Made by a program: the position numbers and the translations under genes
Assembly (NCBI GenBank): GCA_018433585.1
Contig: JAHDQW010000006.1
Span: forward strand, 1-64,000
From: Candidatus Praeruminimicrobium purgamenti
GTDB lineage: Bacteria; Elusimicrobiota; Endomicrobiia; Endomicrobiales; Endomicrobiaceae
Direction: 5' to 3'
DNA length: 64,000 bases
Notes under the pieces: generated by a model
Told to the model about the DNA's origin: nothing
The model's database searches: none
What the model saw: only the letters and a program-made list of their open reading frames with translations
Shown here: positions 2,859 to 56,979 of the stretch, one piece after another
How positions within the stretch are numbered: the stretch's first letter is position 1
Layout: each line of letters starts with the position of its first letter

Positions 2859-5800
2859 ATGAAAAGAGTTAACTTTGGAAAAATAAGTTCACCGATTGAT
2901 CCACCTTTACTGCTTGGCATGCAGAAAAATTCATTTGCAGAGTTTTTGCAGATGGACGTAGACCCTGAAAAGAGAAAATTTCAAGGTCTTGAAGGTGCTT
3001 TTAAAGATGTTTTCCCTCTGACAAATTCAGACGGGAGTTTAATTATGGAATATATCTCCTACAGCTTTGGAGAACCTAAATATTCCGTAGAAGAATCTAT
3101 TGCCAGAGATGAGACCTATTCGTCATCATTGAAGATAAAGTTAAGATTACTGCATAAAAAAGAAGACGGCAAAGTCAAGGAACTTTCAGAACAGGAAGTT
3201 TATTTTGGCGATATTCCGCTTATGACAGATACGGCTACGTTTGTTATTAACGGCGCCGAAAGAGTCGTCGTAAGCCAGATTCACCGTTCTCCGGGCGTAA
3301 TTTTTGAAGAAGACGAAGAAAAGAAGGTTACCGTTTTCGGTAAGCCTTTATATTTTGCAAGAATTATACCTTACAGAGGAGCATGGGTTGAATTTGAATT
3401 TGACCAGAATGGTCTTTTGTATGTAAGAATAGACAGAAAAAGAAAAATATTGGCTACAACTCTTTTGAGAGCTATCGGTTTTGAAAACGACAATGATATT
3501 TTAAATCTTTTTAAAGAAACAAAAGAAGTTTCTTTGGACACTCCGGCTTCAGCTTTGGCAAACGAATGTTTGGCTGACGATATTTACGATAAAGCCACCG
3601 GTGAGGTTCTTTTTGATGCAGGTAAAGAATTGACTGAAACCGTAATCGAAAAGATGAAAGCCAAAGGTTTGACTTCCGTAGTTGTTCTTAAAGATTCTAC
3701 AATTTTGCTGACATTGAAAAAAGACACCATTAAGACTCAGAAAGAAGCCGTAAATCATATTTATAAAGTTTTAAAAACCCAGGAGTTCATTGTTCAGGAA
3801 AGAGCTCAGGGCTTTTTGGACGAATTGCTGTTTAAATCTGTAAGAAGATACGATTTTACCGCAATCGGAAGATATAAAATTTTAAAGAAGCTCGGACCTA
3901 TTTATAAATTTTACAAGAATCATTTTAGTTTAACTGTTCCTGCCGAAAACAAGAGAACTGTTGCAAGAGAAGATATCGTTGCGACGATCAAGTATCTCTT
4001 GATGATTTATAACGGCGAATCGGAATTTATTGAAAATGACGAAAAAATGAAATTAGGTTTGGACGATATAGACCATTTAGGCAACAGAAGAGTAAGATCT
4101 GTAGGCGAATTGCTTGAAAATCAGGTAAGAATCGGATTGGTTCAGATGGCAAGACTCGTAAAAGAGTATATGAACAATCAGGATAAAGCCACGGTTACTC
4201 CTAGATCTCTTATAAATATTACTCCTTTTGTCGCACAGATAAGAAAATTTTTCGGAACTTCGCAGCTTTCTCAGTTTATGGACCAAATCAATCCGTTGGC
4301 TGAATTAACGCACAAGAGAAGACTTTCTGCTTTAGGCCCTGGAGGTCTTAACAGAAAAAGAGCCGGATTTGAAGTCAGAGACGTTCATTATACGCATTAC
4401 GGAAGAGTATGCCCTATTGAAACTCCTGAAGGACCGAATATCGGTCTTATAACTTCATTGTCCGCTTATGCGAGAGTAAACCAGTACGGTTTGATTGAAA
4501 CTCCTTATAAAAAAGTTGAAAACGGCAAAGTTACCGATAAGATAGATTATATGACTGCGGATACCGAAGATGATTTCTTCGTAGCCCAGGCAAACACTCC
4601 TATCGATGCAAGCGGTAAATTTACCATTGATACCGTACAGGGAAGACATTGGAACGATTTCTTGTTTAAATCACCTGATAAAGTTGATTATATGGATATT
4701 TCTCCGATGCAGGTTGTTTCTGTTTCGGCAGGACTTATTCCTTTCCTCGAACATGACGATGCAAACCGTGCGCTGATGGGCTGTAACATGCAGAGACAGG
4801 CAGTACCTCTTCTTGTTACCGAACAGCCTGTAGTTTGTACCGGCGTTGAAGATAAGGTTGCAAGAGATTCAGGCGTTGTAGTATTGTCAAAAATAGACGG
4901 TGAAGTTGTTTCCGTTTCTTCTGATGAAATTATTGTTTGGAGCGATAAAAACGGAATAAAAGAACATAAATTAAGCAAATATTTAAGATCCAACCAGGAT
5001 ACATGCATTAATCATATTCCGATAGTAAAAGTCGGAGATAAAGTTAAGAAAGGCGACATTATTGCCGACGGTCAGGCTACAAAGAACGGACAGCTGGCTT
5101 TAGGTCAAAACCTTCTTATAGCTTTCATGCCTTGGGACGGATATAATTTCGAAGATGCTATTTTGTTGTCGGAGAAATTAGTTCATGACGATAAATTTAC
5201 GTCTGTTCATATAAGAGAGTTTGAAACTGAAGCAAGAGAAACGAAAGGAAGACCTGAAGAAATAACGAAGGATATTCCTAACGTAGGCGCTGAAGATCTT
5301 TTGAACCTTGATGAAGACGGCGTAATCAGAGTAGGAGCAACAGTCCAGAGAGGAGATATCCTTGTAGGTAAGACTGCTCCGAAAGGCGAACAGCAGACAA
5401 CTCCTGAAGAAAGACTTTTGAGAGTGTTGTTCGGTAAAAAAGCGGAAGATGTTCAGGACGTTTCTTTGAGAGTCGACCCGGGAACTGCAGGTAAAGTTTT
5501 GGGCGTCAGAACTTTTGTAAGAAGAGAAAAACTCTCTGAAAAAGAAATCAAGAAGAAACAGGACGAAGTAGCGTCATTATATAAATCTGCAAAATCTAAG
5601 CTGGAAAAAGAGAAGAAAGAACTTTTGGAAACGGCAAATAAGTCCGAAAGAAAAAAGATTGAAGATTTATATCAGGCTAAAGAAGAAATTCTTAAACAGA
5701 ATTATGAAAAAGAGAAAGACAGATTTAAAAAAGGCGACGAATTGCCTGTATCTGTCAATAAAATAGTAAAAGTTTATATAGCTGCAAAATTAAAAGTTCA

Positions 5801-6614
5801 GGTTGGAGATAAATTAGCCGGAAGACACGGTAACAAAGGTATTGTTTCAAGAATACTTCCTGTTGAAGATATGCCGAGACTTCCTGACGGAACGCCTGTA
5901 GACTGTGTTCTTTCTCCTCTTGCCATACCGTCCCGTATGAACGTAGGACAGCTTTTGGAATCTATGTTGGGATGGGCTGGAAAAGTCTTGAACATTCAAA
6001 TGGTTACTCCTGTATTTGACGGAGCAACAGAAGACCAGGTAAAAGAACAAATCAGAAAAGCAAAAGATATGCTTGTAGAGCACAAGAAGCAGGAATTTGA
6101 AAGAAGAGGAATGAAAGGGGAAGAACTTTCAAAAGCTCTTGAAGATTACAGACTCCGCTATTTGCCTACGGATGATTGCAAAATTACATTGTATGACGGC
6201 AGAACAGGTGAAGCTTTTATGGAAAAAGTAACCATCGGCGTCATGTATATGTTAAAACTTAATCATCTTGTTGAAGATAAAATGCACGCAAGATCAACCG
6301 GTCCTTATTCTCTTATTACAAGACAGCCTCTCGGCGGAAAAGCCCAGTTCGGAGGTCAGAGATTCGGAGAAATGGAAGTTTGGGCGGTTCAAGCATACGG
6401 TGCGGCACATGTTTTACAGGAATTTTTAACTGTAAAATCCGATGATGTCGACGGCAGAGTTAAAATGTATGACTCTATCATTAAGGGCGAAGCCATATCA
6501 GAGCCTGGAATACCGGAATCATTTAAAGTGCTTGTAAACGAACTCAAAGCTTTGGGGTTGAATGTGGATCTTCTGAAAGATAATGTAAGCAGCAGTACCG
6601 AAGAACAAAAATAA
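2859..6614 (+). CDS. rpoB: DNA-directed RNA polymerase subunit beta
   Basis: The beta subunit (1251 aa) forms one pincer of RNA polymerase. The rifampicin-binding region is plain near residues 465-530 (SQLSQFMDQ, THKRR, LSALGPGG), with the usual sensitive-type residues, followed by GRVCPIETPEGPNIGLI. Further on come the NFEDAILLSE segment, a lysine/glutamate-rich coiled-coil insertion at about 905-960 (flap region), KLAGRHGNKGIVS, and the C-terminal GGKAQFGGQRFGEMEVWA. Start ATG 2859 gives the family N-terminus (SSPIDPPLLLGMQKNSFAEFLQ). The gene has its own promoter and rpoC follows after 24 bp. Confidence 0.98.
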   Translation: MKRVNFGKISSPIDPPLLLGMQKNSFAEFLQMDVDPEKRKFQGLEGAFKDVFPLTNSDGSLIMEYISYSFGEPKYSVEESIARDETYSSSLKIKLRLLHKKEDGKVKELSEQEVYFGDIPLMTDTATFVINGAERVVVSQIHRSPGVIFEEDEEKKVTVFGKPLYFARIIPYRGAWVEFEFDQNGLLYVRIDRKRKILATTLLRAIGFENDNDILNLFKETKEVSLDTPASALANECLADDIYDKATGEVLFDAGKELTETVIEKMKAKGLTSVVVLKDSTILLTLKKDTIKTQKEAVNHIYKVLKTQEFIVQERAQGFLDELLFKSVRRYDFTAIGRYKILKKLGPIYKFYKNHFSLTVPAENKRTVAREDIVATIKYLLMIYNGESEFIENDEKMKLGLDDIDHLGNRRVRSVGELLENQVRIGLVQMARLVKEYMNNQDKATVTPRSLINITPFVAQIRKFFGTSQLSQFMDQINPLAELTHKRRLSALGPGGLNRKRAGFEVRDVHYTHYGRVCPIETPEGPNIGLITSLSAYARVNQYGLIETPYKKVENGKVTDKIDYMTADTEDDFFVAQANTPIDASGKFTIDTVQGRHWNDFLFKSPDKVDYMDISPMQVVSVSAGLIPFLEHDDANRALMGCNMQRQAVPLLVTEQPVVCTGVEDKVARDSGVVVLSKIDGEVVSVSSDEIIVWSDKNGIKEHKLSKYLRSNQDTCINHIPIVKVGDKVKKGDIIADGQATKNGQLALGQNLLIAFMPWDGYNFEDAILLSEKLVHDDKFTSVHIREFETEARETKGRPEEITKDIPNVGAEDLLNLDEDGVIRVGATVQRGDILVGKTAPKGEQQTTPEERLLRVLFGKKAEDVQDVSLRVDPGTAGKVLGVRTFVRREKLSEKEIKKKQDEVASLYKSAKSKLEKEKKELLETANKSERKKIEDLYQAKEEILKQNYEKEKDRFKKGDELPVSVNKIVKVYIAAKLKVQVGDKLAGRHGNKGIVSRILPVEDMPRLPDGTPVDCVLSPLAIPSRMNVGQLLESMLGWAGKVLNIQMVTPVFDGATEDQVKEQIRKAKDMLVEHKKQEFERRGMKGEELSKALEDYRLRYLPTDDCKITLYDGRTGEAFMEKVTIGVMYMLKLNHLVEDKMHARSTGPYSLITRQPLGGKAQFGGQRFGEMEVWAVQAYGAAHVLQEFLTVKSDDVDGRVKMYDSIIKGEAISEPGIPESFKVLVNELKALGLNVDLLKDNVSSSTEEQK

Positions 6615-35091: not shown

Positions 35092-37095
35092 ATGGAAAAA
35101 ATATTAACGATAAACGGTAAAAAATTCAGTTTTGATAATGAGAAAAACCTTTTGGAAGTTATCAGAAAAGCAAATATAGAACTCCCTACTTTCTGTTATC
35201 ATTCTGAGCTCAGCACTTACGGTGCCTGCAGACTTTGTATGGTAAATGTTGAAAAAAGAGGAATTCTTCCTGCCTGTTCAACGCCTCCTGAAAACGGTAT
35301 GGTCGTTGTAACTAATAATGAAGAAATCAGAGAAATGAGAAAAATGATAGTCGAGCTTTTGCTTGCAAACCACGATAAAGACTGTACGAGCTGTCATAAG
35401 AGCGAAAGCTGTCAGCTTCAGACGCTTGCAAGAAGACTCGGAATACATAAAATAAGATTTAAAAACGTTATGAAAAAAGAACCTCAGGATTTTTCAACGT
35501 ATTCTTTGGTCAGAGACCCTAACAAATGCGTTCTTTGCGGAGACTGCGTAAGATTCTGCGAAGAAATACAAACTGTCGGAGCGATTGACTTTGCCCACAG
35601 AGGTTCAAAATCAGCCGTTTGTCCTAGCTTCGGAAAAGATTTGGAATCTTCCGAATGCGTATATTGCGGACAGTGCGCAAGAGTTTGTCCTACCGGCGCT
35701 TTGACTCCTAAATCGGAAGTCAGCCACGTATGGAATGCTTTAAGCAATAAAAATAAAACGGTTGTAGTAGCTATAGCTCCTGCAGTAAGAGCCGCAATCG
35801 GCGAAGCTTTCGGCTTGAATAACGAAACAGGAACCGAAGCAGCCGGAAAAATGGTTACGGCTTTAAAAACTATAGGATTTGCAAAAGTTTTTGATATATC
35901 TTTTGCCGCCGATATGACAATTGTCGAAGAAGCGAAAGAATTCGTCGACAGATTTTCAAAAGGCGAAAAGCTCCCTCAGTTTACGTCCTGCTGTCCTGCA
36001 TGGGTTAAATTTGTCGAACAGTATTATCCTGATATGATAGAAAATCTTTCAAGCTGCCGTTCTCCTCAGGGAATGTTCGGCTCTCTTGCAAAAAAAGTTC
36101 TGCCTGAAATGTACGGCATTAAAAAAGAAGATTTGGTCGTTATATCGGTTATGCCTTGTACCGCAAAGAAATTTGAAGCAAGAAGGCCTGAACTCTCAAA
36201 AGACGGTCTTCCTGATACGGATTTTGTTTTGACTACGCAGGAACTGGCAAGAATGATAGAAGAATCAGGTTTGTCTTTTAAGGATTTGGAACAGTCTGCA
36301 TTTGATGTGCCTTTAGGTTTCAAAACAGGCGGAGGCGTTATATTCGGAAATTCCGGAGGCGTAACAGAAGCCGTTTTGAGAAACGTTTTGGCAAAAGAAG
36401 ATTCTAACGAAGTTGACGAATTCAGTTTTGTCAGAGGCGAAGACGGAATCAGAGAAACAACCGTGTCGGTAAACGGCAAAGATTTGAAAGTAGCCGTTGT
36501 TTACGGACTCGGAAACGCAAGAAAAGTCGTAAGAGATATAAAGTATAATCATAAACATTATGATTTGATAGAAGTTATGGCATGCCCGGGCGGATGTATA
36601 GGCGGAGCGGGACAGCCTGTTTATAACAGTTTGGACGTAAGGTCAAAAAGAACAAAATGTCTTTATGAAAACGACAAGGTTTTGGAACTTCATAAACCTC
36701 AGGACAATCCTTATGTTCAGAAAATATATAAAGATTTCTTAAAAGAACCGGGCAGCCATGAAGCCCACGAATGTCTGCATACTTCACATACAAGCAGAAA
36801 GAGACTTGCCGAAAATCCGTTTACAATACATAAAGGCAAACACGAAAAGACTCTTAAAATAAACGTATGTTTCGGGACAAGCTGTATGTTAAGAGGTTCC
36901 CAGAAACTTTTGAAATCAATTCTTGAATTGGTTGAAAAGAAAAATATTCAGGATAAAGTTGAAGTTCAGGCTTCTTTCTGTTTCGAAAAGTGCGCCAGAG
37001 GACCTGTCGTAAGAATAGGTTCAAAAGTGATAACGAAGTGTACTATAGAGTTGGCGGAGAAGGCTATAGACACCGAAATAAAAACCATAGCTTAA
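35092..37095 (+). CDS. hydA: [FeFe]-hydrogenase catalytic subunit HydA
   Basis: HydA (667 aa) makes H2 from NADH and reduced ferredoxin together with HydBC. N-terminal [2Fe-2S] (CYHSELSTYGACRLC), His-ligated [4Fe-4S], and 2x[4Fe-4S] (CVLCGDCVRFCEE, CVYCGQCARVCP) precede the H-cluster motifs TSCCPAW (about 297), MPCTAKK (about 353) and CPGGCIGGAG (about 497). The last 80 residues add a NuoE-like thioredoxin [2Fe-2S] domain (CFGTSCMLRGS, CFEKCARGP). ATG 35092 with AGAGG before it gives the normal start; the frame continues upstream into hydB. The maturases HydE, HydF and HydG are not in this window. Confidence 0.97.
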   Translation: MEKILTINGKKFSFDNEKNLLEVIRKANIELPTFCYHSELSTYGACRLCMVNVEKRGILPACSTPPENGMVVVTNNEEIREMRKMIVELLLANHDKDCTSCHKSESCQLQTLARRLGIHKIRFKNVMKKEPQDFSTYSLVRDPNKCVLCGDCVRFCEEIQTVGAIDFAHRGSKSAVCPSFGKDLESSECVYCGQCARVCPTGALTPKSEVSHVWNALSNKNKTVVVAIAPAVRAAIGEAFGLNNETGTEAAGKMVTALKTIGFAKVFDISFAADMTIVEEAKEFVDRFSKGEKLPQFTSCCPAWVKFVEQYYPDMIENLSSCRSPQGMFGSLAKKVLPEMYGIKKEDLVVISVMPCTAKKFEARRPELSKDGLPDTDFVLTTQELARMIEESGLSFKDLEQSAFDVPLGFKTGGGVIFGNSGGVTEAVLRNVLAKEDSNEVDEFSFVRGEDGIRETTVSVNGKDLKVAVVYGLGNARKVVRDIKYNHKHYDLIEVMACPGGCIGGAGQPVYNSLDVRSKRTKCLYENDKVLELHKPQDNPYVQKIYKDFLKEPGSHEAHECLHTSHTSRKRLAENPFTIHKGKHEKTLKINVCFGTSCMLRGSQKLLKSILELVEKKNIQDKVEVQASFCFEKCARGPVVRIGSKVITKCTIELAEKAIDTEIKTIA

Positions 37096-37122
37096 GATTT
37101 TAATATTTGGATTACAATTTTA

Positions 37123-37174
37123 TAAATTCCAGCCTTATGTACTAAACTTGTACACTGCGGCTGGAATTTATTTT
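37123..37174 (+). terminator. Terminator hairpin of the hydrogenase operon
   Basis: TAAATTCCAGCC (37123-37134) pairs with GGCTGGAATTTA (37159-37170), 12 bp, with an inner TGTAC/GTACA stem as at 12337-12393, followed by TTTTATTT. Confidence 0.65.
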
Positions 37175-37302
37175 ATTTCATCTCAAACTTTTAAGTTTAT
37201 GTAAATGCTGTAGGGTGATATACACTGCGGACGAGAATTTTTTTGTTTCAGCTGAAATCTTCAAATCTTGATATTCTTCTTATTTTATATTATAGTATTA
37301 TT

Positions 37303-37352
37303 GCTCTCTTGGAAACCCGGGCTTTGTAATCCTGGCAACTTCCTAAGAGAGC
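37303..37352 (+). other. Unexplained long hairpin, 5' of the AT-rich cassette
   Basis: GCTCTCTTGGAA (37303-37314) pairs with TTCC-T-AAGAGAGC (37340-37352) with one bulge, and an inner stem CCGGG/CCTGG (37317-37321, 37331-37335) closes a 9-nt loop. No T-run follows, so it is not a normal terminator. It precedes a membrane protein gene. Confidence 0.55.
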
Positions 37353-37556
37353 TTTAATTCCCTTTCAATTGTAAAACAAAGCTCAATATAAGTTGTTATT
37401 TTTATAAAATAATAAGCCATAGTTAATGAATAATTATTGATGTTTTTTGTGAAAGAAAAATTATACTTATCAAATAAAATTAAACAACATCTTGTTTAGA
37501 ATATTATAATTCAACCATATTTTTTATCAGTTTTAGGTATATTTGGCATTCTGTTT

Positions 37557-38297
37557 TTGCTGATTTTGAGAGTAGATTCTAATGTCATTACTTCATATAC
37601 AATATCTATATTAATATTAATAATAGCATCTATTAAATGGAACGAAAATAAAGTTTTTGAGAAATTAAAAAATATAATAAAATTTCAATTTTATAATAAT
37701 ATTTCAGAGTTATTACAGCATATATATATATATATATTATATTTTTTTAAAAAATCTCAAAAATTTTTTCCGGAAATTAATTTTACATCAAATTTATATT
37801 TTAATCTTAAATTATATTATTCCGAAGATACAAATGAAGAAACTATTATTAACGATATACAAACATCAATCTGTTATTACAATGAATTAATAGAACAATA
37901 TGATATTTATTTCACTTATCATACAAAATATAAATATTTTTTTATTGAAACAATACTGGAATCTTTCAAAGATGTTAAGGACTTTTTTAATAGAACAAAT
38001 TATAATATTGATAAGAAACATTATCTAAAAGATACTTCTATCAATTCTATTATTTTATTTTTACAAAAAATTTATAATAAAAATAAATATTATGAAAAAA
38101 ACAAACTCTACAGTTTTTTATGTAATGCAGATTCAAATACGTTAATTAAAAACTATACTCGTCAGAAATTAGATTTGGATATTTTATATTCTTCATCTGA
38201 ATATTTAAATTTTAAACATTTTTTATTTTTTGAAGTTTATCAACCAAATTCTTATTGTAAATTTATAAAAAATGATAATAAATTAGTGAGGTTATAA
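37557..38297 (+). CDS. Hypothetical membrane protein, AT-rich, start unresolved
   Basis: The 246-aa frame from TTG 37557 is lysine/isoleucine/tyrosine-rich and much more AT-rich than its neighbours. One hydrophobic segment (SYTISILILIIASIKW) is in the N-terminus; the open frame extends upstream to about 37500 and would add a second one (about 37518-37575), but has no ATG, GTG or TTG there. The start may therefore be TTG 37557, a rare codon or a lost 5' end. The rest is soluble and predicted helical (FYNNISELLQHI). No family recognised. It ends 1 nt before the outer-membrane gene and looks co-transcribed with it. Confidence 0.55.
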   Translation: MLILRVDSNVITSYTISILILIIASIKWNENKVFEKLKNIIKFQFYNNISELLQHIYIYILYFFKKSQKFFPEINFTSNLYFNLKLYYSEDTNEETIINDIQTSICYYNELIEQYDIYFTYHTKYKYFFIETILESFKDVKDFFNRTNYNIDKKHYLKDTSINSIILFLQKIYNKNKYYEKNKLYSFLCNADSNTLIKNYTRQKLDLDILYSSSEYLNFKHFLFFEVYQPNSYCKFIKNDNKLVRL

Positions 38298-38298
38298 A

Positions 38299-38937
38299 AT
38301 GAAAAAAATCTTTTTAACATGTTGTTTGCTTTGCCTTTTCACATACGCATTTGCTGAAAAACAACCATCCTTGCTAGATACAAATGAAGTTACATTGAAA
38401 TTCGGGAAAATCCTTTCGAATGATGTTCAATATGAATCTATAGCCGATAATACATTTTATATATCAGATCATGATTCAAAAGGTATAGTTGTTAAATTAG
38501 ATTATATTTATTATCTTGCAAATTATACAGGAATAGGCTTAGGGTTAAGTTATACAGATAATACTGCAAACAATTATGATCCTGTTACTCCATATATAAT
38601 TATTAAACAAATGTGTCCTGTAGCAACGCAAAACCACGACAACAAAATCTATTTGTATGTTGGTGGAGCTTTTGGCTATGGAATAACCTCAAAAGAACAA
38701 ACTTATATATTGTCTTCTTCAGATAAATATACACTGCAAAACAATGGCGGTCCATACTGGAATGTTTTTGCAGGGATAGATATAAACTCTTTTATCGTTG
38801 ATTTATCATTATCAGAAACTTATTTTAGAAGTACATGTATATGGATAAATGGAATATATGAAGGAAGCGATAAAAATTATATTACATATACAACATTATC
38901 ATTGTCTGTAGGATACAAATTTAATTTTAAATTATAA
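38299..38937 (+). CDS. Putative outer-membrane beta-barrel protein
   Basis: A 212-aa protein with a signal sequence (KKIFLTCCLLCLFTYAFA, cleavage after about residue 19). The mature part alternates aromatic and polar residues in short strands (GIGLGLSYTDN, KIYLYVGGAFGYGI, YTTLSLSVGYKFNF), and ends in an aromatic strand close to the C-terminus (NFKL), as in small OMP_b-brl barrels. Function unknown; it may act with the preceding membrane protein. AT-rich as its neighbour. The ATG follows the upstream stop by 1 nt and GAGG lies before it. Confidence 0.7.
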   Translation: MKKIFLTCCLLCLFTYAFAEKQPSLLDTNEVTLKFGKILSNDVQYESIADNTFYISDHDSKGIVVKLDYIYYLANYTGIGLGLSYTDNTANNYDPVTPYIIIKQMCPVATQNHDNKIYLYVGGAFGYGITSKEQTYILSSSDKYTLQNNGGPYWNVFAGIDINSFIVDLSLSETYFRSTCIWINGIYEGSDKNYITYTTLSLSVGYKFNFKL

Positions 38938-38941
38938 AAAG

Positions 38942-39004
38942 TTGCCGGCGGCTTCTCGGAAGTCCTTGATATTTAAGGCTCTTAGCGAGACCAACCACCG
39001 GCAA
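38942..39004 (+). other. Unexplained long hairpin, 3' of the AT-rich cassette
   Basis: TTGCCGG-C-GG (38942-38951) pairs with CC-A-CCGGCAA (38995-39004); inner stems TCTCG/CGAGA and CCTT/AAGG continue the rod, with internal loops GGAAGT and CTCTTAG. GC-rich within AT-rich surroundings, without a T-run. Confidence 0.55.
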
Positions 39005-39061
39005 TATAAATATAAGCCAAAGATTGTGAAATGTCAACAAATTTTATGATACAATATTTTC

Positions 39062-39520
39062 ATGATAACAATTTTAACAGGACTTCCCGCAAATAAAAAT
39101 GACGATTCAAAAGTGTGCCGTGATTTTTCCGTCGCAGAAGGCATAAAGGCTATATGCGGTTCTTCAACAATGAAAATGTACTGCAGAGAACTTAACATAA
39201 TTCCGAAAATAGAAATAATTAACGGCTGTAAAATGCTTCCTGAAGCGGTATATACAATTGAAGGGATAGATTTTGCCTTTGAAGGCGTAATAACGTTAAA
39301 CCAATGTTACCGTATTTTAACAGGGGAAAGCAAAGCCTGCGGGCAGGCGTCTCAGCTTGCAAACCTTTTAAAAACTGCAAAAAACGTGCATTTTATAATC
39401 GGGACGGCAGATAATAAAGAAAAGGAAACATATCTTCAAAACAATCTTTTGCCGCGCAAAGAAATAACCGGCAAAATAGTTTCAATTTTAAATGCCAAAA
39501 CCGAAATAACGTTTATTTAA
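39062..39520 (+). CDS. Orphan domain like the C-terminus of hydrogenase-linked SpoIIE proteins
   Basis: This 152-aa protein reads like a stand-alone copy of the C-terminal module of SpoIIE-type phosphatases found in clostridial and Thermotoga hydrogenase clusters: ILTGLPANKNDDSKV, then AICGSSTMKMYCREL, IEGIDFAFEGVITLNQ, and FIIGTADN. The family pattern (GPPxNxxxD, CGGTTAxIVAREL, EGIDLVTEGVLTL) is recalled, not searched. The phosphatase domain is missing. It lies 2 kb behind hydA, with a -10-like TACAAT 6 nt before ATG 39062, suggesting a leaderless mRNA. Function unknown; hydrogenase regulation is inferred from the family's context. Confidence 0.6.
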   Translation: MITILTGLPANKNDDSKVCRDFSVAEGIKAICGSSTMKMYCRELNIIPKIEIINGCKMLPEAVYTIEGIDFAFEGVITLNQCYRILTGESKACGQASQLANLLKTAKNVHFIIGTADNKEKETYLQNNLLPRKEITGKIVSILNAKTEITFI

Positions 39521-51583: not shown

Positions 51584-51997
51584 TTTTGTAATAGTTCTTT
51601 AAAGATATTTTTTTGTTTTTTCTTTTTTAAGCAGTCGGATAGCCATTCGCTTGTTTTTTTTACTGTACAGCTGACAACTTGAAAAATCCTTACAAAATAA
51701 TGAAACGGATTTTTCTTCAAACAAGTCAGCTTAAAATTTTATCTATTTTTAAATTTTACAGAAAAAAAGACTTCGCTCATAAGCGGCTATATACTGCTTG
51801 CAAAAAGAAAAAACTATGATTTAATTAAACTACACTGATGTAAAAATATTTCACTTATAGACGTATTCTAATGTGGTAACAGCAAGAGACAAAACTGTAA
51901 AAACGACAGAAAAAGGCAAAAAGCAGTTGTTTAAATCGTCAAAATTTGGTATTTTATTTATCCATTTAAAATATTCATATATTTTTCCAATATCAGC
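51584..51997. other. Intergenic region before tRNA-Ser, no gene seen
   Basis: 414 bp of low-complexity AT-rich sequence with T-runs (51607-51630), the inverted copy of the 28-bp repeat (51698-51725), and no convincing open frame or hairpin. Confidence 0.6.
51698..51725 (-). repeat. Dispersed 28-bp repeat, copy 2
   Basis: Reverse complement of 28181-28208 with one mismatch; weaker similarity extends some tens of bases beyond. Confidence 0.8.
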
Positions 51998-52084
51998 GGA
52001 GAGATGGCCGAGTGGTTGAAGGCGCAGTCCTGGAAAGACTGTTTATCGGTGACGGTAACAAGGGTTCGAATCCCTTTCTCTCCG
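51998..52084 (+). tRNA. tRNA-Ser (anticodon GGA)
   Basis: A full type II tRNA is read: acceptor GGAGAGA/TCTCTCC, D arm GCC/GGC, anticodon stem CAGTC/GACTG around CTGGAAA (anticodon GGA), long variable arm (TATCGGTGACGGTA region), T loop TTCGAAT, discriminator G. No CCA is encoded. A damaged copy lies at 54350-54436. Confidence 0.96.
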
Positions 52085-52128
52085 TTTTTTACTTCCTAAT
52101 TCATAATTTTTACTGCGTTTTCTCTCGT

Positions 52129-52658
<530 letters not shown>

Positions 52659-52720
52659 AATCTTCGTAAAATATAACAACTTTGATTTTCGTATCCCTCT
52701 GATTTTAGCATTTATACTAT

Positions 52721-52819
52721 ACTTTCACTTGTTCATACCTTGTAAAAATTTAAATTAGTTCGCAAATATTACATTTCATTAAAAAAATAAAAAATATTCG
52801 TAAAATACTGCATAAAATC
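52721..52819 (+). repeat. Intergenic repeat, copy B
   Basis: ACTTTCACTTGTTCATACCT, AAAAATTTAAATTAGTTCGC and AAAAATATTCGTAAAATACTG repeat the pattern of copies A and C, in the gap between the GIY-YIG and ATPase genes. Confidence 0.7.
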
Positions 52820-52932: not shown

Positions 52933-54123
52933 ATGATACAAAGACAAGAATATCTCAACAAATTGCTTAGTTTTAAAGATAAACAGCTTATAAAAATCGT
53001 AACAGGCGTGCGCCGTTGCGGCAAATCTACTTTATTCGAACTATATCAAGCACAATTGCTTAAAAGTGGAGTGAATAAAAATCAAATTCAAAGTATAAAC
53101 TTGGAGGATCCGGCTTACTCGGAACTTCTTGATTGGAAAAAACTTTATGATTATATAAATAAACGTCTTATTCCAAATAAGCAAAATTATATATTTATTG
53201 ATGAAATACAAAACGTTGCTGATTTTGAAAAAGCAGCCGATGGACTTTTTATCAAAAAAAATGTTGATTTATATTTAACAGGTTCTAATTCGAAAATGCA
53301 GTCTGGAGAGTGGGCTACATTGCTTTCTGGACGATACATTGAAATACATATTCTGCCATTGTCTTTTAAGGAATATCATTCTACCGCTTTTACTGGAAAT
53401 ATAGAAGAAACTTTTAGTAATTATCTTGAAAACAGTTCTTTCCCGTATGCTTTGCAATTAAACGGTGACAGAAAGCAAATAAGGGATTATCTTGGCGGAA
53501 TATATAATACGATAGTTCTTAAAGATGTTGTTGAAAATAAAAAGATACGCGACGTCAGCCGGCTTGAAAGCGTTATAAAATTTATTTCTGACAACATAGG
53601 TAATTTAACTTCCATCAAGAAAATCAGCGATACAATGACATCAGACGGTATAAAAATGCTGCCTCTTACAATAGAAAACTATCTTGACGCATTTCGTGAA
53701 AGCTATATTTTATATAAAGCAAGCAGATATGATGTTAAAGGCAAAAAACTTTTACAAACGCTTGATAAGTATTATCTTGTGGATATAGGCTTGCGCTATT
53801 ATCTGTTAGGTGATAAAAAAGCCGATAGAGGCCATATTCTTGAAAATATAGTATATCTTGAACTATTAAGACGCGGATACAAAGTTTATATAGGCAAAGT
53901 GGCAGATAAAGAAGTAGATTTTGCGGCCGAGGGTATTGACGGCATAGAATATTATCAGGTGGCAGATACGGTGGCAGATACAAAAACACTTGAACGTGAA
54001 CTTACGCCGCTTAATGCAATAAAAGACCATAACCCAAAAATTATTCTGACCAGAGATTTTGATCCAAAGACATCGCACAACGGCATAAAACAAATCAATA
54101 TTTTTGATTGGTTGTTACAATAA
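52933..54123 (+). CDS. AAA_14/DUF4143 family ATPase
   Basis: A 396-aa protein with a Walker A GVRRCGKSTLFE (about residues 27-35), Walker B YIFIDEIQN, a sensor-like LTGSN, and a C-terminal DUF4143 part with REDUCED hydrophobic core (YLVDIGLRYYLLG, RGHILENIVYLELLRRGYKVYIGKV, KEVDFAAEG), the last resembling a PD-(D/E)xK nuclease half (E...VDF). These proteins are abundant in some anaerobes and have no firm function. AGGAGG lies before ATG 52933. Located between the two tRNA-Ser copies. Confidence 0.85.
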   Translation: MIQRQEYLNKLLSFKDKQLIKIVTGVRRCGKSTLFELYQAQLLKSGVNKNQIQSINLEDPAYSELLDWKKLYDYINKRLIPNKQNYIFIDEIQNVADFEKAADGLFIKKNVDLYLTGSNSKMQSGEWATLLSGRYIEIHILPLSFKEYHSTAFTGNIEETFSNYLENSSFPYALQLNGDRKQIRDYLGGIYNTIVLKDVVENKKIRDVSRLESVIKFISDNIGNLTSIKKISDTMTSDGIKMLPLTIENYLDAFRESYILYKASRYDVKGKKLLQTLDKYYLVDIGLRYYLLGDKKADRGHILENIVYLELLRRGYKVYIGKVADKEVDFAAEGIDGIEYYQVADTVADTKTLERELTPLNAIKDHNPKIILTRDFDPKTSHNGIKQINIFDWLLQ

Positions 54124-54349: not shown

Positions 54350-54436
54350 AGAGAGAGAGCCGAGTGGTTGAAGGTGCAGTTCTGGAAAGACTGTTTATCG
54401 GTGACGGTAACAAGGGTTCGAATCCCTTTCTCTCGT
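54350..54436 (+). pseudogene. Degenerate tRNA-Ser(GGA) copy
   Basis: Nearly identical to 51998-52084, including the anticodon loop and variable and T arms, but position 8 T is changed to G, the first acceptor pair is A/G, and the D and anticodon stems have new G:T pairs. The following flank also matches the first copy after a 45-bp deletion between short TTCTCTC(C)GTT repeats. Likely non-functional relic of a duplication or integration. Confidence 0.8.
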
Positions 54437-55085
54437 TAGGATACCTCGGGGCTCCGCCCTTTACAGTATACCCTCACTCGTTCATACCTTGTAAAAAATT
54501 AAATTAGTTCGTAAATATTATATTGTGTCAAAAAAATAAAAATATCTGTAAAATACTAAAACAATTTTATTAAATATAGTTGTAGTGAATCTAGAGGATA
54601 TAATAGCTAATACTAGTTAATCAGTTCCTTGCTTTTCTCTAAATATTTCTTAAAATGATTTTTAATTGTCAGAAATTTTTCATTTAGTAAATCAAAAACA
54701 CCAAAAAAGATATCGTAATCGCTATTTTTATAACTTTCCATCCTCTAGTATCGATAAAATGTGTTTTCTTACAATGATTCAGTATTTCTAATAATATTAG
54801 GATATATTTAATGCAGGTTTTGTTTAATAAATATTTAGAAAACATGTAATATAATGGTAATAGCAATGTGCTATATTGAAAAATAGTATAATATAAATCA
54901 AATGGAGTTTAGTAAATATATGCAAGTTTTATTTTTTTATTTACATCAAACTTCAATAAAAGAGATATTGTGTTATAAAATTAATTTTTGTGAAAATAAA
55001 AGCTCTTTGATATTTTTAACAATAAATAGTTTAAATTGTTTTTTCTTATGTAATTATGTTATTTTACTCAAAAGAGGTTATTTTT
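54437..55085. other. AT-rich intergenic region between tRNA-Ser relic and CBASS genes
   Basis: 649 bp without a firm gene. It starts with repeat copy C (54438-54560). A 42-aa minus-strand frame (54613-54741) and a 66-aa plus-strand frame (54902-55102) exist but lack ribosome binding sites and family features. A -10-like TATAAT is at 54887-54892, upstream of the CBASS genes. Confidence 0.5.
54438..54560 (+). repeat. Intergenic repeat, copy C
   Basis: GGATACCTCGGGGCTCCGCC, CTCACTCGTTCATACCTTGT, then AATTAGTTCGTAAATATTAT and a variable ATCTGTAAAATACT end; closest to copy A. Confidence 0.75.
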
Positions 55086-56096
55086 ATGGCAAAAACAGTT
55101 AATGAAGCTTTCAATGAATTTATGAAAAATGTAGTGAATCTTTCTGCATATGATACTAATAATGCAAAAAATAGTAGAAAATGGCTTGTTGATAATATAA
55201 TAGAATTGCCAAATAGCGATTATGATTTTCCATTATTATATATAGAACAGAATATATTTTTTGGCTCATTTGAAAGAAAGACAAAAGCAGAAATATTAGA
55301 TGATATTGATTTAATGATTTGTCTTAGTGCAGAAGGTTCATGGTATGAAGGGTTTGGGGAAGACATAAAAATTCATGTGCCTGATTCAGCAACTAGATTA
55401 AAAAATTTTTGTAATGAGGATGGCAAGACTTTAAACTCAATAAAAGTAATCAATTGTTTTGTTAAAAAATTAGAAAAAATACCTCAGTATAAAAAAGCAG
55501 AAATTCATAGGGATCAAGAAGCTGTAACATTGGATTTGCAATCTTATGATTGGAAATTTGACATTGTCCCTTGTTTTTTTACTAAGCCAACAGAAAGCAA
55601 TAAAACTTTTTATATTATACCAGATGGCAAAGGCACTTGGAAAATGACAGACCCAAGGTTAGATAGAGAAAGAACATATGAAGTTAATAATATGCATGGC
55701 AACAATATAGTTTTAAATATCATTAGAATAATTAAATATTGGAATAATAGACATACTATGCCTTCAATAGGCTCTTATCTATTAGAAAATATGATTTTAG
55801 ATTACTATTACAGTAACTATCAATATAATGTCTCAAAATTCATTGATTTAGAGTTGCTTAAAATATTTTCTGATTTAGCTAGTAGAATATATAGTCAAGT
55901 TCATGATCCTAAAGGAATACAGGGTAATCTAAATTCATTAGATTATGAGACCAGAAAAAAAGTAGAAGCCAAAGCTAGAGAGGATTATTATAAAGTAGGA
56001 GAAGCAATAAAATTTGAACAAGAACAAAATTACAAAGCAGCACTAAATAAATGGAGTGAAATTTTTGGCGATAAATTCCCTAAATATGAGGATTAA
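55086..56096 (+). CDS. SMODS-domain nucleotidyltransferase (CBASS CD-NTase)
   Basis: The 336-aa protein fits the OAS-like nucleotidyltransferases that make cyclic oligonucleotides in CBASS antiphage systems. The polymerase-beta catalytic site is visible: FFGSFERKTKAE (GS, about residues 59-60), DDIDLM (D-x-D, about 70-73) and a third aspartate in WKFDIVPCF (about 157-159). The C-terminal helical part has NIVLNIIRIIKYWN, typical of the SMODS/PAP core. ATG 55086 has AGAGG before it; a longer frame from 55056 lacks support. The next gene follows 1 nt after the stop and encodes a membrane effector. The nucleotide product cannot be read from the sequence. Confidence 0.9.
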   Translation: MAKTVNEAFNEFMKNVVNLSAYDTNNAKNSRKWLVDNIIELPNSDYDFPLLYIEQNIFFGSFERKTKAEILDDIDLMICLSAEGSWYEGFGEDIKIHVPDSATRLKNFCNEDGKTLNSIKVINCFVKKLEKIPQYKKAEIHRDQEAVTLDLQSYDWKFDIVPCFFTKPTESNKTFYIIPDGKGTWKMTDPRLDRERTYEVNNMHGNNIVLNIIRIIKYWNNRHTMPSIGSYLLENMILDYYYSNYQYNVSKFIDLELLKIFSDLASRIYSQVHDPKGIQGNLNSLDYETRKKVEAKAREDYYKVGEAIKFEQEQNYKAALNKWSEIFGDKFPKYED

Positions 56097-56097
56097 T

Positions 56098-56979
56098 ATG
56101 AATGCTATAATTAAAAGAGAAAATGAAGAAGATAGCTTAAAGAAATTAGTAGCTCAGAAAGAATGCTATTCTATGGCGAAAAAAGTTTATTTTATACAAT
56201 TTCTACTTGCAATAGTTGGAGTTGTAATTTTTTCATTTTTACAGATAATGTTTAATAAGTATAAAATAAACATATCATTAATTGTCGCAACATATAGTAT
56301 AACAATTCTTTTTGTTGATGTTTTTTTGGATTCTTATGTTGGGGAACTTAAAGAAAAAGCAAGTTTAATTCAAGAACTTTTTGATTGTTATGTTTTAAAT
56401 ATCCCATGGAACAATATTTTATGTGGAAGTGAAACAGAAAGCAGGGATATCTATTGCAATTGTTTTGAGAAGAAAAAAAGAAATTTTCTAAATTTAAAAA
56501 ATTGGTACGATGAAAGTATTTCTCTTGTTCCAGAGGAAGTAGGTAAAATAATTTGTCAGAAAATTAACTGTACGTATGATGTCGAAATAAGGAAAAAATA
56601 TATGTTGCTGATAAAATGGACAACTGCAATTTCTGTATTGTTAATTGTGTCAATTGCAATTTTTTCTTATACAATATTTGCGAATTTTATATTGGCTGGT
56701 GTTTTACCGCTTTTGCCAATTATTAAATGGATATATAAAAATATCAAAAGTAATACTAGCTCTATAAATGCCCATGAAAAATTAAAAATAAATATAAATC
56801 ACATATTGAAAGATGCTGCAAACAATAGTTCTCATAATGCTATTTCTATAAGGCAGATACAAGATAAAATTTTCCTTAATAGAAAGGAAGTTTTTCTTAT
56901 ACCTGATTATCTTTATAATAAGTGGAGAAATAAACAAGAAGATGCTATTAGAAATTTAGTAGAAGAGAGTATAAAATAA
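56098..56979 (+). CDS. S-4TM family pore-forming effector (CBASS)
   Basis: A 293-aa protein with four hydrophobic segments in two pairs: about 31-53 and 58-80, then about 173-195 and 198-216. This is the layout of the S-4TM effectors that, on sensing the CD-NTase's nucleotide signal, permeabilise the inner membrane and kill infected cells. The middle region and the C-terminus (about 220-293) are soluble and could bind the signal. It starts 1 nt behind the CD-NTase stop with GAGGA before ATG 56098. There is no Cap2/Cap3 or HORMA/TRIP13 partner, so the locus fits the minimal type I plan. Composition is AT-rich compared with the rest of the window. Confidence 0.85.
   Translation: MNAIIKRENEEDSLKKLVAQKECYSMAKKVYFIQFLLAIVGVVIFSFLQIMFNKYKINISLIVATYSITILFVDVFLDSYVGELKEKASLIQELFDCYVLNIPWNNILCGSETESRDIYCNCFEKKKRNFLNLKNWYDESISLVPEEVGKIICQKINCTYDVEIRKKYMLLIKWTTAISVLLIVSIAIFSYTIFANFILAGVLPLLPIIKWIYKNIKSNTSSINAHEKLKININHILKDAANNSSHNAISIRQIQDKIFLNRKEVFLIPDYLYNKWRNKQEDAIRNLVEESIK

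Follow-up and report, generated by a model that had tools for sequence, protein, structure and literature searches.

A pair of adjacent genes in a 64,000-nucleotide stretch of contig JAHDQW010000006.1 of Candidatus Praeruminimicrobium purgamenti (hereafter the window) raises the question of whether a single cyclase and a single membrane protein constitute a complete defence system, and of how such a compact system may operate. The original prediction was that of a minimal two-gene type I CBASS locus, and it is borne out: both genes are matched by family profiles, their coordinates (55086–56096 and 56098–56979, forward strand) and the 1 nt between them are as predicted, and PADLOC names both as CBASS parts, the first as an oligonucleotide cyclase (PDLC00802) and the second as a 4TM effector. 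One cyclase gene plus one effector gene is the layout described for type I CBASS (PMC10419184). We consider it highly probable (about 0.9) that the pair is a minimal type I CBASS operon with a 4TM effector, with standard activation by a cyclic nucleotide. This reading is supported by both family identities, the complete catalytic triad, the four predicted transmembrane (TM) segments, the tight coupling of the genes, their pairing across phyla and the absence of ancillary genes; among the neighbour genes scanned with PADLOC there was no Cap2 or Cap3 (type II), as had been anticipated, and no HORMA or TRIP13 (type III). The locus is real, intact and ordinary, one more example of an established kind, type I CBASS with a 4TM effector. 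A downstream methyltransferase was rejected as a defence gene, its weak PADLOC match ('mad2') covering the methyltransferase domain only.

The cyclase

The first gene (55086–56096, forward strand) encodes a CD-NTase (SMODS cyclase) of 336 amino acid residues, in an intact reading frame from the ATG at 55086 to the TAA at 56096. This start agrees with the N-terminus MAxTVN of its homologues in the alignment; the frame is also open from an ATG at 55056, but this longer start was discarded, as the N-termini of the homologues fit 55086. A putative Shine-Dalgarno-like sequence, aaaagaggttattttt, read directly from the DNA, precedes the start (55070–55085, forward strand).

The protein is composed of a nucleotidyltransferase core (G60-S61, D73, D75 and D159) and a helical C-terminal half. 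Pfam SMODS (PF18144) matches the nucleotidyltransferase domain with 42.7 bits, above the cut-off of 26.5, and PDLC00802 spans residues 1–335 (E=4.5e-140), while the matches to the NCBIfam CBASS cyclase models fall under the equivalog cut-offs. An OAS-like nucleotidyltransferase with a GS...DIDLM...D triad had been predicted and, in fact, the motif GSF..DDIDLM is present, the third aspartate lies within WKFDIVPC, and G60, S61, D73, D75 and D159 are invariant in alignments of 7–8 sequences, so that none of the acidic residues is missing. D159, in the FDIVPCF motif, was taken as the third catalytic residue, since the nearby D150 varies among homologues. In human OAS1 the third aspartate sits in FDVLPAF, which we take to be the counterpart of this motif.

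The structure prediction proposed as a check points in the same direction, the CD-NTase fold being found in the AlphaFold model of the cyclase (pLDDT 83.3), whose best Foldseek matches are CBASS cyclases and cGAS: Pseudomonas aeruginosa CdnD (PaCdnD) comes first (E=1.7e-12, TM-score about 0.65–0.72), followed by cGAS and Escherichia coli CdnC (EcCdnC). Sequence profiles against the PDB agree in giving PaCdnD as the nearest solved relative, at 20% identity. PaCdnD and EcCdnC have been reported to make cyclic tri-adenylate (PMC13424991), and by analogy with PaCdnD, solely as the nearest solved enzyme, the product here is perhaps the same molecule; we make no confident product call, because identity to PaCdnD is only 20% and the likeness of fold is moderate.

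The S-4TM effector

The second gene (56098–56979, forward strand) starts 1 nt after the first and encodes a S-4TM effector of 293 amino acid residues, from the ATG at 56098 to the TAA at 56979, again without interruption of the frame. The motif GAGG stands before both ATGs, which fits ribosome binding; that of the effector, a putative Shine-Dalgarno-like element also identified by direct reading (56088–56097, forward strand), falls within the final codons of the cyclase and therefore suggests that translation of the two genes may be coupled.

The assignment of the protein to S-4TM holds over almost its full length, since Pfam S_4TM (PF18159) covers residues 2–289 of 293 with 223.7 bits (cut-off 26.9, E=4.2e-66), and PADLOC adds nine matching 4TM effector models (PDLC00715, E=5e-69). 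The four TM segments that had been predicted correspond to hydrophobic segments at residues 30–48, 59–77, 177–195 and 198–216, with four such segments at matching places in seven homologues too, and the AlphaFold model is all helical, with four long helices (pLDDT 83.6, pTM 0.81). Neither a recognised nucleotide-sensor domain in the protein nor a solved relative in the PDB was found, the latter by sequence search or Foldseek (no significant match), and a literature search returned no mention of S-4TM and no biochemical or phage data on it. A pattern scan built from the S-4TM alignment was dropped, the alignment being too diverse.

When the effector model was compared with a viral structure library, 4 of the top 20 Foldseek matches were SMODS/SLOG-associating 2TM effector proteins of giant viruses, with E>=0.33. 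This non-significant likeness might reflect a two-helix unit that is present twice in S-4TM.

Distribution of the gene pair

The adjacent pair is widespread on mobile DNA, with hundreds of plasmids of enterobacteria carrying it. tblastn of plasmid records retrieved the cyclase in 954 and the effector in 919, mostly from Escherichia, Salmonella and Klebsiella, with many of the plasmids conjugative, and the partner is labelled there as 'S-4TM family putative pore-forming effector'. Among viral contigs, a single cyclase sequence as query gave no match, and the alignment (A3) as query gave five loci. They lie next to each other in E. coli, Stanieria, a phage scaffold, Cloacimonadota, Alteromonadales, Planctomycetia and the viral contigs, and in reversed order in Acinetobacter; they are contiguous at every locus where both are fully readable. 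The nearest named homologues of the cyclase, with 52–53% identity and a S-4TM gene adjoining, belong to Cloacimonadota (L008) and Cyanobacteria/Nostocales (L007). At the latter locus, the cyclase homologue (5082–6086) has an internal stop codon and the S-4TM partner is intact.

Since CD-NTases make signalling nucleotides, it may be asked whether this cyclase serves a housekeeping second-messenger pathway instead of phage defence. That general property is the sole point in favour of a role which we regard as barely credible, given the patchy distribution of the pair, its carriage on plasmids and viral contigs, the fact that a predicted membrane-active effector always accompanies the cyclase, and the absence of the pair from the only other genome of this genus. 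The locus described here extends the known range of this defence pair, widespread on plasmids and viral contigs, by a further lineage, and points to movement of the pair between phyla.

Probable horizontal arrival and genomic context

Horizontal arrival had been suggested on the grounds of base composition and of a duplicated tRNA-Ser, and it gains support from the distribution of the genes. S_4TM was found in 2/341 genomes of the phylum sample, and among 60 relatives no other genome carries an effector or cyclase of this kind (59 relatives without the cyclase). The other S_4TM genome (G208) has a different cyclase type (PDLC00776), with a shorter cyclase-like frame before it; at this locus (L055, 6366–7879) the shorter frame is followed by the full cyclase and S-4TM, and a transposase-like gene adjoins them. 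SMODS matches were obtained in 21/341 genomes of the same sample, so that, of the notability claimed for a defence system in a small-genome anaerobe, the defence locus stands but the rarity does not, CBASS-type cyclases not being rare in the phylum.

The claim that the pair is AT-rich against its surroundings is correct for the window as a whole (26.7% G+C vs 36.4%, with only 3.5% of equal-length windows as low) but not for the immediate neighbourhood, where the low G+C extends beyond the pair and 52.2–55.0 kb is similarly AT-rich. The G+C is equally low in another stretch of the window (36500–39500) that holds short reading frames; one of these (37557–38297) has no clear family match. Taken together, because S-4TM is rare in the phylum, the relatives lack the cyclase, the nearest named homologues belong to other phyla and the G+C is low, the operon was probably acquired by horizontal transfer from another lineage.

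The duplication of tRNA-Ser is real, as the two copies (51997–52085 and 54350–54436, forward strand) have 88 nt in common at 94% identity, but only the first is normal. This copy, a tRNA-Ser(GGA) identified with ARAGORN, is context and not part of CBASS; we take it as the resident gene, since in a genome of another genus (G028), as here, this tRNA follows the efflux operon, and a further genome (G010) carries an identical tRNA. The second copy, likewise context only, is degenerate, with its end some 650 nt before the cyclase gene, and the loss of its first acceptor pair together with the change of U8 to G makes it unlikely to function.

Between the two copies lies an AAA_14/DUF4143 ATPase gene (52933–54123), a PADLOC candidate (PDC-S01), whose protein has 86–92% identity with its counterparts in some further genera of the family, whereas the efflux protein is only 34–63% identical between genera. 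The ATPase gene is apparently mobile, and the tRNA-Ser(GGA) looks like a recurrent insertion spot, because the same ATPase gene lies directly behind tRNA-Ser(GGA) in another genome (G298). The duplicated tRNA-Ser may consequently belong to the ATPase module instead of the CBASS pair. A search for another repeat of the tRNA 3' end, as a third copy marking the right edge of an island, gave none, and the downstream methyltransferase does not set this edge either, being missing from the relatives too. In the genome of the same genus (G001), the contig stops right after the efflux gene, and the empty site is not covered.

Two further elements were noticed in this region. An intergenic repeat of ~80 nt, with the core CTCACTCGTTCATACCTTGTAAAA, is present in three copies (52151–52233, 52711–52793 and 54460–54542), two of which follow the tRNA-Ser copies, and it also occurs elsewhere in the genome and in two other genomes (G001 and G007). 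A 96-aa GIY-YIG-like frame, just under the Pfam cut-off, is located between the tRNA-Ser copies (52368–52658).

An acquired pair may also be decayed or silent cargo, no longer expressed or functional in its host. Promoter and terminator scans at the locus gave signals no better than chance, which would suit such a state, as would the standing of the pair as sole family member among 60 relatives and the internal stop in the related Nostocales cyclase. Nevertheless, both frames are of full length, with the catalytic residues complete and plausible ribosome-binding sites in place, for which reasons we find a silent pair unlikely and retain the reading of a functional type I CBASS operon.

Proposed mechanism

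In a type I CBASS operon of this composition, phage infection would switch on the CD-NTase, which would then make a cyclic oligonucleotide out of ATP or other NTPs. The signal would reach the S-4TM protein in the inner membrane, possibly by direct binding, whereupon S-4TM would oligomerise or open and the membrane barrier would be broken, the infected cell dying or stopping growth ahead of phage release. That CBASS can act through membrane-active effectors is well established (PMC10419184). As S-4TM lacks both a recognisable sensor domain and a solved relative, its activation by nucleotide binding is something that we infer, as we also infer that this pair protects against phages.

The opposite sign of signalling was considered as well. 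In Panoptes, a two-gene operon of synthase and TM-effector works with inverted logic (PMC12657218); transferred to this locus, a constantly present nucleotide would hold the 4TM effector shut, and a phage sponge removing the signal would fire it. Gene anatomy alone does not separate activation from inhibition of a 4TM effector. Nonetheless, the synthase here is a CD-NTase and not mCpol, the effector is S-4TM and not S-2TM-beta, and the literature search found no S-4TM example of such logic, which makes an inverted system very unlikely and leaves activation by the cyclic nucleotide as the preferred reading.

As a tentative proposal, to which we give somewhat less than even odds, S-4TM may itself be the sensor of the cyclic nucleotide, by means of an all-helical fold that resembles no solved structure and lacks a SAVED, CARF, STING or beta-barrel domain. 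The sensing site would draw on strictly conserved residues in the soluble parts of the effector, e.g. Q92, D96, W104, W136, Y137, D161, Q255 and R262. If true, self-sensing would hold for the whole known family, beyond this locus. How S-4TM senses and kills is likewise a question for the whole family, for which the compact two-gene version would be a convenient test case.

Comparison with known systems

The E. coli plasmid p40EC-1 (NZ_CP070921.1) has a like gene order and a comparable match to PDLC00802 (E=1.8e-149 vs 4.5e-140 here), with 3 nt instead of 1 nt between the genes and 45% identity between the cyclases. The effectors differ, being only 25% identical, with that described here nearest to a different 4TM sub-model, and so do host and setting, which is chromosomal in our case. 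The closest cyclases found, those of the L008 and L007 pairs, also have S-4TM alongside, but they belong to other phyla and the L007 cyclase contains a stop. PaCdnD (PDB 6p82, 6p8u and 6p8j) shares the D-x-D and D[AIV]VPxF motifs with the present cyclase, but acts with HORMA partners, none of which is found at this locus. CBASS Cap15 and Panoptes OptE (S-2TM-beta) follow the same two-gene logic of a signal and a membrane effector (PMC10419184, PMC12657218); their effectors combine a pair of TM helices with a soluble beta-barrel sensor, whereas S-4TM is formed by four TM helices and is all helical.
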